Assembly (NCBI GenBank): GCA_019423265.1
Contig: JAHZBS010000076.1
Coordinates: 1 to 10,583, forward strand
Direction of reading: 5' to 3'
DNA from: Clostridiales bacterium
GTDB lineage: Bacteria > Bacillota_A > Clostridia > Lachnospirales > Bianqueaceae
DNA: 10,583 nucleotides
The notes beneath the pieces were generated by a model. It was given only the letters and a program-made list of their open reading frames with translations, was not told where the DNA came from and made no database searches. The translations under genes and the position numbers were made by a program. This document shows, one piece after another, positions 2,062 through 10,583 of this stretch (its first letter is position 1; each line of letters opens with the position of its first letter).

Positions 2062-4000
2062 TCCGGGAACTATTTTAGGAAACCGGTACGAGATTGTAGA
2101 GGAAATCGGTTCCGGAGGCATGGCGATTGTATATAAAGCAAAGGACTATAAGCTGCACAGGATGGTAGCGATCAAAGTTCTGCGCAGAGAGTACGCCGCC
2201 GACGAAGTGGTGTTGGCAAAGTTTCAAAAGGAGGCACTTGCGGCTGCCAGCCTCTCCCATAACAATATTGTGGGGGTGTACGATCTAGGGCAGGAGAAGG
2301 ACGTCTATTATATCATTATGGAATACATAGACGGCATCACGCTAAAAGAGTATATTCGGCGGCGCGACACCATGTCGTCGGAGGAAATCTTGAAGATCTC
2401 CCTGAAGATAGCCGACGCTCTCCGCGTTGCCCACGCGAATCATATCATTCATCGGGACATCAAGCCGCAGAATATCATGGTTACCCAAAAGGGAGCGGTG
2501 AAGGTTACGGATTTTGGAATCGCAAAGGCGGCAACATCCACGACCATGACGAATCATATGGATACCATGGGATCCGTTCACTATTTTTCTCCTGAGCAGG
2601 CGAGGGGCGGCTTTGTGGATGTCCGCAGCGATCTGTATTCTCTGGGAATCACCATGTATGAGATGGCGACGAAGAGGCTTCCTTTTAACGGCGATACGCC
2701 GGTCTCAGTCGCCATGCAGCAGATCCATGATCCCATGCCCAACCCCCGGAAAGAGAATGCGGCTCTGTGGCCCGGGCTCGCCGCGATTATCCGCAGGCTG
2801 ACGCAGAAACGTCCGGAGCTGCGGTATCAGTCGGCGGAGGAGCTCATGGCGGATCTGCGAAAGGTCTATGTGGATCACGACTATATCGTGCCGCTTCCGA
2901 CACAGATTGACGAGGCGGATTCCTACGGGGAGCCTCCGCGCCGTCAGGAGGTTCGTCCGGCGCCGCCGAAACGCCCGGTTTCGGAGGCCGAGGATACGGA
3001 TGAGGACAGAAAGCCGGATACGGCGGCGAAAAAGAAGAAGATCCTCATTTTTTCCGCCTGTGGAGCGGCTGTATTGATTATAGCCCTTGTCCTGGTCTTC
3101 AATTTTCTGTTGAAGCAGGCTAAGAGCAATCTGATACCAAATCTGGCAGGGTATACCCTTGAGGAAGCGCAGGACAAGGTATCAGGGCTGAAGATGACAG
3201 TGGAAGTGGAGAGACAGGAATATAACGATCAATATGATGCCGGCAAGATTACCGGACAGGATCCCCCCGTCAACACGGAGGCGGTGGAGGGTTCCGTGAT
3301 CAAGGTCGTTGTCAGTATGGGAAAACGGCAGGTCGATAAGGTGCCGGATGTGACCAATCTGACGTACGCAGGTGCGGTGAAAGTTCTGGTCGATGCGGGG
3401 CTGCCCTACACCGTCGAGACAAAGGCGGATGAGACAGTGGCTATGGGCACTGTCATCTCCCAGGATCCGGTGAAGGATACGGATCTGACCGAGGGAACCG
3501 TCGTCACGATCTATGTCAGCACAGGGACGGGGGAAACGCTCATCGAGGTGCCGGATCTGACGAACATGACGGAAGAGCAAGCCAAGGAAGAGCTGACACA
3601 GCGGAAGCTGACCATAGGGACCGTCAGCGAATCCTATCACGACTCTGTGGAACAGGGCAAAATCATCGCCCAGGGGACGGAGAAGGGCTCGATGGTCATG
3701 GAGGGAACGGCGGTGGATGTGACGGTCAGCCTTGGCAAGCTAGATGGGGAGACAGTGGGCAAAGACGGCGGAAATATCATCCTCACCAGTCCCTTTTCTA
3801 AAGATGATACAGGTTCAAAACTTTTGACGATCCAGGCGACGGACAAGGATGGACAGATGACGGAACTCTACAACAAGACCGTTACGGCGGCTACCTTTGG
3901 AGCCCAGGGCGGCATTTCAGTGGCGTATCCGAGGGGAACCGTGGTCATCAAGGTATTCTTGGACAATTCGCCGGTTTTGACGCGGAATGTAAATGAATAA
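2054..4000 (+). CDS. prkC: PASTA-domain Ser/Thr protein kinase (PrkC/Stk1 family)
   Basis: This is a membrane-anchored Hanks-type kinase that senses muropeptides or lipid II and controls cell wall, division and, in spore formers, germination. In the 648-residue protein I see a Gly-rich loop GSGGMAIVY (19-27), catalytic Lys K41 (VAIK), HRDIKPQN with D136, DFG at 153-155, a Thr-rich activation loop and SPEQARG. A charged Pro/Arg/Lys-rich juxtamembrane stretch follows, then one transmembrane helix (about 330-353). Three extracellular PASTA repeats lie at about 360-424, 428-492 and 497-562. A C-terminal extracellular segment (563-648) is not assigned to a family. The ATG at 2054 is chosen over the in-frame ATG at 2027 because GGAAGG (2040-2045) precedes it and the protein then begins just before the kinase domain. 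It overlaps stp by 8 bases. Confidence 0.95.
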   Translation: MLSPGTILGNRYEIVEEIGSGGMAIVYKAKDYKLHRMVAIKVLRREYAADEVVLAKFQKEALAAASLSHNNIVGVYDLGQEKDVYYIIMEYIDGITLKEYIRRRDTMSSEEILKISLKIADALRVAHANHIIHRDIKPQNIMVTQKGAVKVTDFGIAKAATSTTMTNHMDTMGSVHYFSPEQARGGFVDVRSDLYSLGITMYEMATKRLPFNGDTPVSVAMQQIHDPMPNPRKENAALWPGLAAIIRRLTQKRPELRYQSAEELMADLRKVYVDHDYIVPLPTQIDEADSYGEPPRRQEVRPAPPKRPVSEAEDTDEDRKPDTAAKKKKILIFSACGAAVLIIALVLVFNFLLKQAKSNLIPNLAGYTLEEAQDKVSGLKMTVEVERQEYNDQYDAGKITGQDPPVNTEAVEGSVIKVVVSMGKRQVDKVPDVTNLTYAGAVKVLVDAGLPYTVETKADETVAMGTVISQDPVKDTDLTEGTVVTIYVSTGTGETLIEVPDLTNMTEEQAKEELTQRKLTIGTVSESYHDSVEQGKIIAQGTEKGSMVMEGTAVDVTVSLGKLDGETVGKDGGNIILTSPFSKDDTGSKLLTIQATDKDGQMTELYNKTVTAATFGAQGGISVAYPRGTVVIKVFLDNSPVLTRNVNE

Positions 4001-6865: not shown

Positions 6866-7201
6866 ATGATGAAAGTAGGTATTATTCGTTGTATGCAGAC
6901 AGAGGATTTTTGCCCCGGCACAACAGATTTCAAAGCGGTTCGGGAGAAGATGGGCGCATTTGCGGAGGTTCAGGAAGAAATTGAAGTCGTTGGTTTTGTC
7001 AACTGCGGCGGATGTCCGGGAAAGAAAGCGGTGCTTCGTGCAAAAGAGCTGGTAAAACGGGGCGCAGACACGATTGCGTTCGCTTCCTGTATCCAGAAAG
7101 GTACGCCGATTGGCTACGCCTGCCCTTTTGCCAAACGTATGAAAATGATTGTGCAGGCTGCTGTTGGAGAAGAGATTCGGATTTTAGATTATACACATTA
7201 G
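6866..7201 (+). CDS. CGGC-domain protein, function unknown
   Basis: The 111-residue protein looks like the small CGGC-domain family, named after its conserved Cys-Gly-Gly-Cys motif, here at 47-50 in VNCGGCPG. Other cysteines are C9 (IIRCMQ), C16 (FCPGT), C75 (ASCIQKG) and C86 (ACPF). Five of the six precede or form conserved-looking turns, which suggests metal or iron-sulfur binding or thiol redox chemistry; the biochemical role is unknown to me. I place the start at the ATG at 6866, after AAGGGGAG (6848-6855). The in-frame ATG at 6812 lies only about three bases from the predicted transcription start and has no ribosome binding site. It is the first gene of the NrdR-controlled operon and ends 15 bases before nrdG, so a role in anaerobic dNTP synthesis is a fair inference. 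Confidence 0.8.
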   Translation: MMKVGIIRCMQTEDFCPGTTDFKAVREKMGAFAEVQEEIEVVGFVNCGGCPGKKAVLRAKELVKRGADTIAFASCIQKGTPIGYACPFAKRMKMIVQAAVGEEIRILDYTH

Positions 7202-7216
7202 CAGAGGCGGCCAATT

Positions 7217-7912
7217 ATGAAAATCGGCGGATTTCAAAAACTGACTCTCTTAGATTACCCCGGTCAGGTTGCCTGCATTGTTTTTACAAAGGGATGTAAT
7301 TTTCGCTGTCCATTCTGCCACAATGCCGGTCTGGTTCTGCCTCAGCAGGAGGAATGTGACATTGCGGAGGAGGCGGTTCTTTTTTACCTGCAAAGGAGAA
7401 AGCATATACTGGACGGAGTGGTGATGACAGGCGGCGAGCCTTTGATCTGGCCTGATCTTTCCGGCTTCTTACGCAAAGTGCGTGGGTTGGGATACAAAAT
7501 AAAGCTGGATACAAACGGAAGTTTTCCGGAGCGTTTGAAGGCGCTGCTGGACTTTGGGCTGGTTGATTATGTAGCGATGGATATAAAACAGACTCCTGAA
7601 CGGTATGAAGACGCTTCCGGTGCGAATCATAAAGAGGTTGTCCCGCTGGTTGAGCAGAGCCTGCGTTTGCTTACAGATTCAGGGATTCCCTTTGAACTTC
7701 GTACAACGGTTGTAAAAGGGATTCACACATTAAAGGATATGACCGCCCTTGCAAAATGGATTGGAAATGTAGCACCGTACTATTTGCAGCCCTATGTGAA
7801 TTCAGAGCATATTCTTTCCCCGGAGGGCCTTTTCTCTTTTTCGGAGAAAGAATTGGAAGAAATATTATCAGAAGTCAAACTCTACTGCCCCTCGGCAGCA
7901 TTGCGGAAATAA
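7217..7912 (+). CDS. nrdG: Anaerobic ribonucleoside-triphosphate reductase activating protein (NrdG)
   Basis: NrdG is a radical-SAM activase that uses a [4Fe-4S] cluster and S-adenosylmethionine to create the glycyl radical on NrdD. The 231-residue protein has the cluster motif C27-x3-C31-x2-C34 (GCNFRCPFC) and the SAM-binding TGGEP (71-75). It also carries the DIKQTPERY stretch typical of the longer NrdG2-type activases found in many anaerobes. The start at 7217 follows a weak AGAGG (7203-7207). It lies between the CGGC gene and its substrate nrdD, 47 bases upstream of the latter. Its length exceeds that of E. coli NrdG (about 154 residues), which fits the NrdG2 subgroup. A pyruvate formate-lyase activase is the main alternative, but the direct neighbour nrdD decides the assignment. 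Confidence 0.92.
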   Translation: MKIGGFQKLTLLDYPGQVACIVFTKGCNFRCPFCHNAGLVLPQQEECDIAEEAVLFYLQRRKHILDGVVMTGGEPLIWPDLSGFLRKVRGLGYKIKLDTNGSFPERLKALLDFGLVDYVAMDIKQTPERYEDASGANHKEVVPLVEQSLRLLTDSGIPFELRTTVVKGIHTLKDMTALAKWIGNVAPYYLQPYVNSEHILSPEGLFSFSEKELEEILSEVKLYCPSAALRK

Positions 7913-7959: not shown

Positions 7960-10023
7960 ATGGAAGATTATCTAGTTGTGAAACGAGATGGAAAAAAGGT
8001 GGATTTTGAACTTCAAAAGATCATTTCCGCCATGGGGAAGGCTTTTAAGGCGTTGGACAAGCATACCCATTCCTCCGTGATCGAATTGCTGGCAATACAG
8101 GTCACAGCGGATTTTGACAGCAAAGTCACGGATAACTGCATTTCCGTTGAGGATATTCAGGACAGTGTGGAAAAAGTCTTATCGCAAACCGGATACCCGG
8201 ACGTGGCAAAGGCATATATCCTGTACCGCCGCCAGAGGGAAAAGCTGCGTCAAACGCAGTCTACGCTTTTGGATTATAAAAAGACCGTGGATAATTATTT
8301 GCAGGTCAATGACTGGCGTGTAAAGGAAAATTCCACTGTTACCTATTCCGTAGGCGGTCTGATTCTATCCAATTCCGGCGCTATGACAGCAAATTACTGG
8401 CTCTCGGAAGTCTATGATGATGAAATTGCAAATGCCCACCGAAATGCGGAACTGCATATCCACGATTTGTCTATGCTGACAGGATATTGCGCTGGATGGT
8501 CGCTGAAGCAGTTGATCCAGGAGGGGCTGGGCGGTGTTCCCGGAAAAATCACTTCCGCTCCGGCGAAGCATCTTGCCACATTGTGTAATCAGATGGTAAA
8601 CTTTTTGGGCATTATGCAGAACGAGTGGGCAGGGGCGCAGGCGTTTTCATCCTTTGATACCTATCTTGCTCCTTTTGTAAAAGTGGATAATCTGACCTAT
8701 GATCAGGTCAAGAAATGCATCGAATCCTTTATCTATGGAGTAAATACTCCCTCCCGCTGGGGAACGCAGGCTCCTTTTTCCAATATCACGCTGGACTGGA
8801 CTGTACCCTCTGATCTTGCGGAATTGCCGGCCATTGTCGGCGGGAAAGAAATGCCGTTCAAGTATAAAGACTGTAAAAGGGAAATGGATATGGTCAATAA
8901 GGCGTTTATCGAGGTCATGGTGGGAGGTGACGCCGAGGGGCGCGGCTTCCAATATCCGATTCCCACCTATTCCATCACAAAAGATTTTGACTGGTCAGAT
9001 ACGGAAAATAACCGCCTTTTGTTTGAAATGACGGCGAAATATGGCACGCCTTATTTCTCCAACTACATCAACAGCGATATGCAGCCCAGTGATATCCGAA
9101 GTATGTGTTGCCGCCTGCGTCTTGATCTGCGGGAACTTCGAAAAAAGACAGGCGGTTATTTCGGCAGCGGGGAAAGTACGGGATCGGTTGGGGTTGTCAC
9201 AGTCAACCTGCCCCGGATTGCCTATCTTGCAAAAGACGAGGCAGACTTCTTTGACCGTCTGGACAGATTGATGGATATTGCGGCGCGTTCTCTGAAAGTC
9301 AAAAGAACGGTAATCGGAAACCTGCTGGAAAATGGGCTTTATCCGTATACCAAACACTATCTTGGAAATTTCGATCATCATTTTTCCACGATTGGGCTTG
9401 TTGGAATGAATGAGACCGGATTAAATGCACGGTGGCTTGGAGAGGATATGACCTGCCCGGAAACGCAGGCTTTTGCCGCAAAGGTACTGAATCATATGCG
9501 GGAGCGCCTTTCGGATTATCAGGAACAATATGGGGATCTGTATAATCTGGAGGCAACACCTGCTGAGTCTACCGCTTACCGGCTGGCGAAGCACGATGTG
9601 GAACAGTTTCCTGACATAAAAACAGCAGCAGAGCCGGGTGGTACGCCTTACTATACCAACAGCTCCCATTTACCGGTTGGTTATACGGACGATCTGTTTT
9701 CAGCGCTGGATATTCAGGATGAACTTCAAACTCTATATACTTCCGGTACTGTATTCCATGCCTTTTTGGGCGAGCGCGTATCTGACTGGCAGACAGCCGC
9801 AAAATTAGTACGAAAGATTGCTGAAAATTACCGTCTGCCCTATTACACACTTTCTCCGACTTACTCCATTTGTAAAGAGCATGGGTATTTAACCGGAGAA
9901 CAGCCGGAATGTCCGATCTGCCATAAAAAGACAGAAGTATATAGCCGGATTACCGGTTATTACCGTCCGGTTCAGAACTGGAACGATGGGAAAGCACAGG
10001 AGTATAGGCAGAGGAAGAACTAG
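7960..10023 (+). CDS. nrdD: Class III anaerobic ribonucleoside-triphosphate reductase (NrdD)
   Basis: NrdD reduces ribonucleoside triphosphates to dNTPs without oxygen, using a glycyl radical made by NrdG. The 687-residue protein starts with an ATP-cone regulatory domain (about 4-95, VVKRDGKK), which senses ATP/dATP. The ten-stranded barrel follows, with C177 (LTGYCAGW) and the MCCRL motif (382-386), which likely holds the thiyl-radical cysteine. A zinc-site pattern C638-x2-H641 and C651-x2-C654 precedes the glycyl-radical loop SRITGYYRP with G666. AGGA (7949-7952) lies seven bases before the ATG. The C-terminal loop differs from the E. coli type and suits the thioredoxin-dependent subgroup. 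The reading frame stops at TAG (10021-10023), and a thioredoxin-like domain continues in the same frame. The NrdD domain itself looks complete. Confidence 0.95.
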   Translation: MEDYLVVKRDGKKVDFELQKIISAMGKAFKALDKHTHSSVIELLAIQVTADFDSKVTDNCISVEDIQDSVEKVLSQTGYPDVAKAYILYRRQREKLRQTQSTLLDYKKTVDNYLQVNDWRVKENSTVTYSVGGLILSNSGAMTANYWLSEVYDDEIANAHRNAELHIHDLSMLTGYCAGWSLKQLIQEGLGGVPGKITSAPAKHLATLCNQMVNFLGIMQNEWAGAQAFSSFDTYLAPFVKVDNLTYDQVKKCIESFIYGVNTPSRWGTQAPFSNITLDWTVPSDLAELPAIVGGKEMPFKYKDCKREMDMVNKAFIEVMVGGDAEGRGFQYPIPTYSITKDFDWSDTENNRLLFEMTAKYGTPYFSNYINSDMQPSDIRSMCCRLRLDLRELRKKTGGYFGSGESTGSVGVVTVNLPRIAYLAKDEADFFDRLDRLMDIAARSLKVKRTVIGNLLENGLYPYTKHYLGNFDHHFSTIGLVGMNETGLNARWLGEDMTCPETQAFAAKVLNHMRERLSDYQEQYGDLYNLEATPAESTAYRLAKHDVEQFPDIKTAAEPGGTPYYTNSSHLPVGYTDDLFSALDIQDELQTLYTSGTVFHAFLGERVSDWQTAAKLVRKIAENYRLPYYTLSPTYSICKEHGYLTGEQPECPICHKKTEVYSRITGYYRPVQNWNDGKAQEYRQRKN
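10021..10023 (+). other. In-frame amber codon between NrdD and the thioredoxin-like domain
   Basis: The codons read Arg-Lys-Asn-TAG-Gln-Phe-Ile-Lys, and the frame then stays open for 106 codons to the TAA at 10342-10344. One base change (TAG to TAT or TAC) would give Tyr and a single fusion of about 794 residues. The bases after the stop, CAGTTC, are close to the CARYYA context known from viral readthrough sites in eukaryotes; whether that matters in bacteria is unknown. Confidence 0.85.
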
Positions 10024-10038
10024 CAGTTCATAAAGTCG

Positions 10039-10344
10039 GTGGTCTCGGCCATAGATGTCGTATCAGCTGCTGTGGCTGCTAAAAAAGAGGACAGCAAGCA
10101 GCAAAAAGAAAATTATTCATTTAAGTTGTTTACTACTGCTACATGTCCAAACTGTCGCATTGCAAAGGAGAAACTCCGTCAGGCAGAGCTTTTTCCAGAA
10201 GTGATTTTAGCAGAGGAACAACCAGAACTTTGCACACAATATGGTATTTTGCAGGCGCCGACTTTAGCAGTAGAAAACGGTCATAGCGTTTCCCTGCATA
10301 TGGGTATATCGGAGATACTTCAATTCATTGCTGATCTTGAATAA
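10039..10344 (+). CDS. Thioredoxin/glutaredoxin-like domain, probably once the C-terminus of NrdD
   Basis: The frame encodes a thioredoxin-fold domain with the redox motif CPNC (36-39) after LFTTAT, and the cis-proline motif QAPT (72-75). This is the expected electron donor for a formate-independent class III reductase, passing electrons from NADPH or ferredoxin to NrdD. Residues 7-27 form a polar, Ala/Lys-rich linker of the kind that joins fused domains. The first possible start is a GTG at 10039, but no good ribosome binding site precedes it, and no in-frame ATG occurs before the active site. It shares the frame of nrdD, separated by one TAG. So it is either made by readthrough, by weak reinitiation, or is the cut-off half of a broken fusion. 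The fold motifs are intact, which argues against long decay. Confidence 0.7.
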   Translation: MVSAIDVVSAAVAAKKEDSKQQKENYSFKLFTTATCPNCRIAKEKLRQAELFPEVILAEEQPELCTQYGILQAPTLAVENGHSVSLHMGISEILQFIADLE

Positions 10345-10358
10345 ACGTAGCGAAGCCA

Positions 10359-10399
10359 AGGAGGGCGCCTTGCTGAATGACTCAGCCAGGCGCCCTCCT
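10359..10399. repeat. Long perfect hairpin between convergent nrd and rpmB genes
   Basis: AGGAGGGCGCCT (10359-10370) pairs perfectly with AGGCGCCCTCCT (10388-10399). After one mismatch GCTGA (10372-10376) pairs with TCAGC (10382-10386) around the loop ATGAC. It lies between two convergent genes and may serve both as a transcript end. Neither strand has a T tract directly after the stem, so it is not a canonical intrinsic terminator. A short T run occurs on the + strand only at about 10414-10418. Confidence 0.7.
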
Positions 10400-10448: not shown

Positions 10449-10583
10449 TTACGCTCTTGTAACCTTGTTGGATCGTAAACAGCGAGCACATACATGAAGT
10501 GTTTTCGGGGTTCCGTTCACGATAGCTTTCACGGTACGAATATTGGGTTTCCACTGTCTGTTCGATCGTCTATGAGAATGGCT
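10449..10583 (-). CDS. rpmB: Ribosomal protein L28, C-terminal part
   Basis: On the - strand the last 44 codons of a 50S ribosomal protein L28 gene enter from the right edge and end with TAA at 10451-10449. The translation contains SHSHRRSNRQWKPNIR, then IVNGTP and the Cys pair VCARCLRS, and ends KVTRA, as expected for bacterial L28. The N-terminal part lies outside the window. In B. subtilis rpmB is convergent with the prkC-rsgA-rpe-thiN-spoVM block and lies right beside it. Here the nrd operon lies between them. Confidence 0.93.
   Translation of the reverse strand, partial: SHSHRRSNRQWKPNIRTVKAIVNGTPKTLHVCARCLRSNKVTRA

Follow-up and report, generated by a model that had tools for sequence, protein, structure and literature searches.

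The nrdD locus and the frame behind its stop codon

The window, by which we mean the whole stretch of 10,583 nucleotides that was analysed, encodes a class III anaerobic ribonucleoside-triphosphate reductase, NrdD, preceded on the same strand by its radical-SAM activase (Table 1). NrdD matched the Pfam profiles PF13597 (625.8 bits) and PF03477 (77.3 bits) and scored well above the curated NCBIfam cut-offs for NF006126 (1122.6 bits vs 548) and TIGR02487 (504.5 vs 326.35); the protein also has an ATP-cone. A finger loop with the motif MCCR starts at residue 382, and the sequence RITGYY, which we take to be the glycyl-radical motif, starts at residue 663; the C-terminal cysteines presumably are of the zinc-binding kind. 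Thus, the finger-loop cysteine, the glycyl-radical motif and a nearby nrdG, which together characterize class III NrdD, are all present, and the finger loop has the double cysteine of the thioredoxin-dependent class III type. Immediately 5' of nrdG, at 6869-7201, there is a gene for a CGGC-domain protein (PF08821). Among the upstream genes of the window, only rpe was matched in the loci that we fetched, at 41%, these loci having been chosen by their NrdD.

Table 1. Features of the nrdD region and of its downstream flank
Feature	Position	Strand	Details
nrdG (NrdG2 type), radical-SAM activase of NrdD	7217..7912	+	TIGR02495, 216.4 bits vs cut-off 131.15
nrdD, class III anaerobic ribonucleoside-triphosphate reductase	7960..10023	+	687 aa, ends with TAG
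In-frame TAG, aligned with Tyr of relatives	10021..10023	+	reading frame, aligned relatives
Linker between NrdD and redoxin	10024..10092	+	boundary with redoxin approximate
Redoxin (thioredoxin/glutaredoxin-like) domain	10093..10344	+	in phase with nrdD; CPNC from residue 729, QAPT; ends with TAA
Inverted repeat	10359..10399		perfect 12-base arms, 17-base loop; between redoxin stop and convergent rpmB; arms checked
Ribosomal protein L28 (rpmB), 3' part	10449..10583	-	convergent, truncated at window end; translation

The most conspicuous feature of the locus is the way in which nrdD ends. The original prediction placed a thioredoxin-like frame with CPNC and QAPT in phase with nrdD, behind a single TAG, and the reading frame bears this out: from 10024, the nrdD frame stays open for 106 codons, up to the TAA at 10342-10344, so that a single codon, the TAG at 10021-10023, is all that keeps NrdD and the redoxin from sharing one open frame. 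The QAPT motif presumably holds the usual cis-Pro. Profile matches of the redoxin are weak and fall below the curated cut-offs (PF00462, E 0.0023 and 18.6 bits vs 22.9; TIGR02187, E 2.6e-5), and comparison with the solved thioredoxin 1fo5 gave an E value of 3.8e-4. The tail is not a chance open frame because, in 78 of the 80 best matching loci (see below), a CPxC tail continues NrdD without a break.

The downstream part appears poorly equipped for translation on its own, again as had been predicted. Between 10021 and 10200, the frame offers GTG at 10039, GTG at 10072 and TTG at 10126 as possible starts, with no early ATG, and inspection by eye of the 20 bases 5' of each of the three detected no good Shine-Dalgarno sequence. 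The purine-rich GAGGAAG at 10011-10017, which precedes the TAG, lies 21 bases from the GTG at 10039, a greater distance than is usual for a ribosome site.

The inverted repeat that follows the redoxin stop resembles a terminator but has no T run, and a terminator scan of the window reported none. The gene behind it is a putative rpmB, named from its L28-like translation. Of the 75 loci among L001-L080 that extend for at least 400 bases past the fusion, 41 have the start of a thioredoxin-reductase-like flavoprotein gene, recognized by motif match only, no more than 400 bases 3' of it; in the window, rpmB on the opposite strand takes the place of such a gene.

NrdD-redoxin fusions in relatives

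With the NrdD part alone as the query, we collected the best 80 of 587 confirmed relatives from a genome collection, the closest of which (L001) shares 90% identity with the window over NrdD. The redoxin continues without a stop in 78 of these 80 loci, and the remaining two (L058 and L077) run out at the end of their contigs. Without exception, the 80 loci carry Tyr where the window has the TAG, and MCCR in the finger loop. The same Tyr is found in each of the 99 distinct fused tails that remained when 144 loci were deduplicated by tail, and also in six NrdDs that lack a redoxin. A search of 397 genomes of the family yielded matches of some kind in 391, with no internal stop among the matches listed, and the genus searches gave matches in 20 of 20 genomes (this type of NrdD only in one of them, G001) and in 40 of 42.

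Judging from these alignments, the fusion of NrdD with a redoxin is the normal state in the relatives, and this architecture appears to be common among gut Clostridia. The C-terminal redoxin of the original prediction is therefore a true fusion, unbroken in 78 of the 80 best loci, and the Tyr that was considered plausible at the TAG is what stands there in all 80 and in a near-identical protein, P0002, described below. The suggested alignment with relatives thus recovered an uninterrupted fusion with Tyr at the TAG, and we rejected the alternative that the redoxin is a separate gene in these bacteria, given that the relatives are fused. Stand-alone relatives of the tail seem to be uncommon: with the 106-aa tail as the query, 2 such proteins were retrieved among 48 candidates, both encoded on contigs shorter than 1.7 kb and likely to be fragments.

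Nonsynonymous divergence in the redoxin is 0.195 between the window and L001, 0.392 between the window and L002, and 0.377 between L001 and L002. In the tail, silent sites are saturated in the comparison with L001, so that the dN/dS ratio gives no verdict. Two other proteins, P0125 and P0126, known as protein sequences only, have apparent private frameshifts in the redoxin or linker beside intact, near-identical copies, which indicates that isolated breaks do occur among such copies.

A near-identical intact copy and a cluster of differences next to the TAG

A near-identical, uninterrupted protein, P0002 (encoded on a 3161-base ENA contig and belonging to a cluster of 7 members), agrees with the window read-through in 783 of 794 residues and carries Tyr in place of the TAG. 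The 11 differences are distributed unevenly: one lies in the core (residue 433), one near the end of the redoxin (residue 788, the only difference in the last 77 residues), and the other nine fall within residues 691-705, encoded by 10030-10074 in the linker, forming a patch that, in the protein comparison, directly follows the TAG. When differences were simulated at column rates derived from 15 homologues, not one of 200,000 replicates placed at least 9 of 11 differences within 15 residues, and 8 were reached twice.

Among 282 close pairs of fetched proteins, the pair of the window and P0002 included, this is the tightest cluster. It has near counterparts, however: another close pair has 8 differences in 15 residues, a few differ at 5 to 12 residues of the linker and at 1 to 5 of the core, and one has 5 in the linker, 1 in the core and none in the redoxin. 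The linker changes much faster than the core and the redoxin, even between some near-identical proteins (for example, P0136/P0140 and P0034/P0042). Given this fast evolution of the linker, the cluster is suggestive of a local error or a cluster of mutations but does not prove either. In an ungapped comparison at the nine patch positions, a further homologue (P0122) matches P0002 at three and the window at none, suggesting that it is the window copy that has changed. A short inversion, reversal, complement or compensated frameshift was tried as the origin of the cluster relative to P0002 and rejected, the best gain being 2 residues, over 36/46.

The cause of the TAG

The TAG is best explained as a private, unprogrammed nonsense codon, either an error or a recent mutation, in what otherwise appears to be an ordinary NrdD-redoxin fusion gene, at a position where Tyr is invariant; we put the probability of this reading at about 0.86. 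What counts against a private defect is that the remaining genes of the window, judged from its sequence alone, show no obvious breaks. As to the source of the codon, a local sequence or assembly error has close to an even chance of being the cause, and we judge it somewhat likelier than a real mutation. A real nonsense mutation in the living strain, which would leave NrdD without its redoxin and dependent on a separate reductant, as an early step in the loss of the fused domain, nevertheless deserves serious, if tentative, consideration. It is consistent with the otherwise intact frame past the TAG and with the situation in six genomes of a related genus (L132-L137), in which NrdDs without a redoxin end 3-4 codons past the same Tyr (in two of these genes, a TGA flagged as internal is the natural end, 3 codons past the Tyr). 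All six retain MCCR, as do the 80 nearest loci, which implies that this type of core can do without a fused partner; weak redoxin matches were found elsewhere in four of the six genomes and none in the other two. Against a mutation, even these redoxin-less NrdDs keep the Tyr that the stop in the window removes, and one point mutation would not account for the dense patch of private differences beside the TAG. Because linkers evolve fast in other pairs as well, the patch could still have arisen naturally, with the TAG as a true trait of the strain.

The original prediction offered a nonsense mutation, a sequence error and deliberate readthrough as explanations, of which the former two fit the data, whereas the last is not supported, there being no stop at this column in any relative examined. 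Programmed readthrough, with a minority of long, self-reducing NrdD made beside the short form, would account for the open frame behind the TAG and for a redoxin that is nearly unchanged compared to P0002, and both the C that follows the TAG and the predicted RNA fold downstream (z -2.56 for a single, arbitrarily chosen 100 bases, with 2 of 200 shuffles folding equally well) could be cited in its favor. Yet the CAG after the TAG is shared with the intact L001-L003 and therefore is not a special stop context; the RNA after the TAG is equalled or exceeded in stability by 52 of 229 stretches of the gene, so that this fold is not unusual for the gene and was left out of the evidence; and a very recent break explains the conservation of the redoxin equally well. 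Where programmed readthrough would be expected to show a conserved stop, all 99 distinct fused tails have Tyr, and the near-identical P0002 is uninterrupted, which leaves the mechanism without comparative support and, in our estimate, very unlikely. Rfam gave 0 matches in the window, and a literature search for bacterial readthrough with a domain extension found none. We consider it highly improbable, too, that the strain keeps the TAG and leaks, so that free NrdD is accompanied by a little self-reducing NrdD-redoxin and the linker behind the stop has been reshaped to suit.

Separate production of the redoxin by reinitiation at the GTG at 10039, 15 bases past the TAG, would make use of an in-frame start close to the stop, but this GTG has no proper ribosome site that could be recognized by eye, and stand-alone redoxins look rare among the relatives; we regard this route, too, as very improbable. 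The TAG could, finally, be read as an amino acid, be it pyrrolysine or through a recoded or suppressor tRNA, and the open frame under such a code is the sole support for this scenario. Of eight further genes inspected in the window, three have TAG as their stop codon (at 2061, 5625 and 7201), the window contains no tRNA genes, and PylS was above the cut-off in none of five related genomes; the weak matches below the cut-off in all five recur in 12 of 14 control genomes. Such recoding is, accordingly, the least probable of these explanations, with hardly any chance of being correct.

Enzyme function and probable redox partner

In the intact enzyme, the fused redoxin would most likely feed electrons to the active-site cysteines of the MCCR-type NrdD and would itself be recharged by a thioredoxin reductase, the gene for which, in the relatives, frequently seems to follow next. 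If the TAG in the window is real, the product would be a 687-aa NrdD without the redoxin and the last few residues of the core, and a free redoxin or formate would be needed as the reductant. Solved NrdD chains run past the last residue aligned to the window core, by 8 residues in 8p23 (735/743) and by 11 in 4coi (640/651), which suggests that the 687-aa product is nearly, perhaps not fully, complete.

Finger-loop motifs containing Met and a double cysteine appear to equip NrdD for the use of either formate or thioredoxin, according to the accessible text of PMC9669993. Among the tails with CPxC or CLxC, 124 go with MCCR and 2 with NCCR, and in 1 case the motif was not found, with overlapping pieces of some genes included in these counts. 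The 14 tails without CPxC/CLxC (the six redoxin-less L132-L137, two contig ends, the viral L176 with CHNC, and five viral redoxin-less loci) go with MCCR in 13 cases and with LCCR in 1.

Relation to known systems

The order of core, linker and CPxC redoxin in the window is the same as in the Clostridia NrdD-redoxin fusions with an NF006126 core; the window copy differs in the TAG between the parts, which is absent from the relatives examined. In the accessible parts of Rozman Grinberg et al. 2018 (PMC6187632), a grx::nrdD fusion is listed for Lachnospiraceae bacterium TWA4, so that there, as in the window, a glutaredoxin-type domain is joined to NrdD in a member of the Lachnospiraceae. These parts list the fusion and give no further description of it or any interruption, and the fusion that was tested in that work is Grx on the class I NrdB. 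This brief mention is what we found in the literature, in the accessible text, on such an NrdD-redoxin fusion; a search for NrdD with a 'thioredoxin domain' in Clostridia found none, and the accessible portions of PMC11226230 and PMC9531940 contain nothing on fusions. With the fusion already in print, the architecture is known in kind, and the window adds a broken copy.

The NrdD of Neisseria bacilliformis uses thioredoxin (Wei et al. 2014, as cited in the available text of PMC4390871, PMC4493059 and PMC9669993). It resembles the window NrdD in the double-cysteine finger loop and in a redoxin as the reductant, the latter a probable role in the case of the window, but it depends on a separate redoxin and has SCCR where the window has MCCR. 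The redoxin-less NrdDs of L132-L137 share with the window an MCCR core that ends within a few residues of the same Tyr; unlike in the window, they have a natural stop after this Tyr, and in L132, L134 and L135, a CPxC redoxin was not found downstream.

The intact fusion is an anaerobic, oxygen-sensitive ribonucleotide reductase that may carry its own reductant. The TAG is mainly a caution, in that one damaged copy is easily mistaken for gene-splitting or recoding. A real TAG would show the fused domain in the course of being lost; NrdDs without a redoxin exist in a related genus.

Viral contigs contributed 32 loci (L162-L193), which, when classified by eye, comprise 23 fused (L176 with CHNC), 5 redoxin-less and 4 that gave no C-terminal motif; host sequences might have been carried over into this collection. 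One of these contigs (L180) has an in-frame TAG at 3723-3725, near the C-terminus of NrdD, where relatives have Gln. This is the sole in-frame stop in the 610 codons counted and could represent recoding or the true end of the protein. In four others (L187, L189, L190 and L192), the NrdD match spans ~0.9 to 1.1 kb of DNA beyond what the matched residues require, possibly an intron or an intein.
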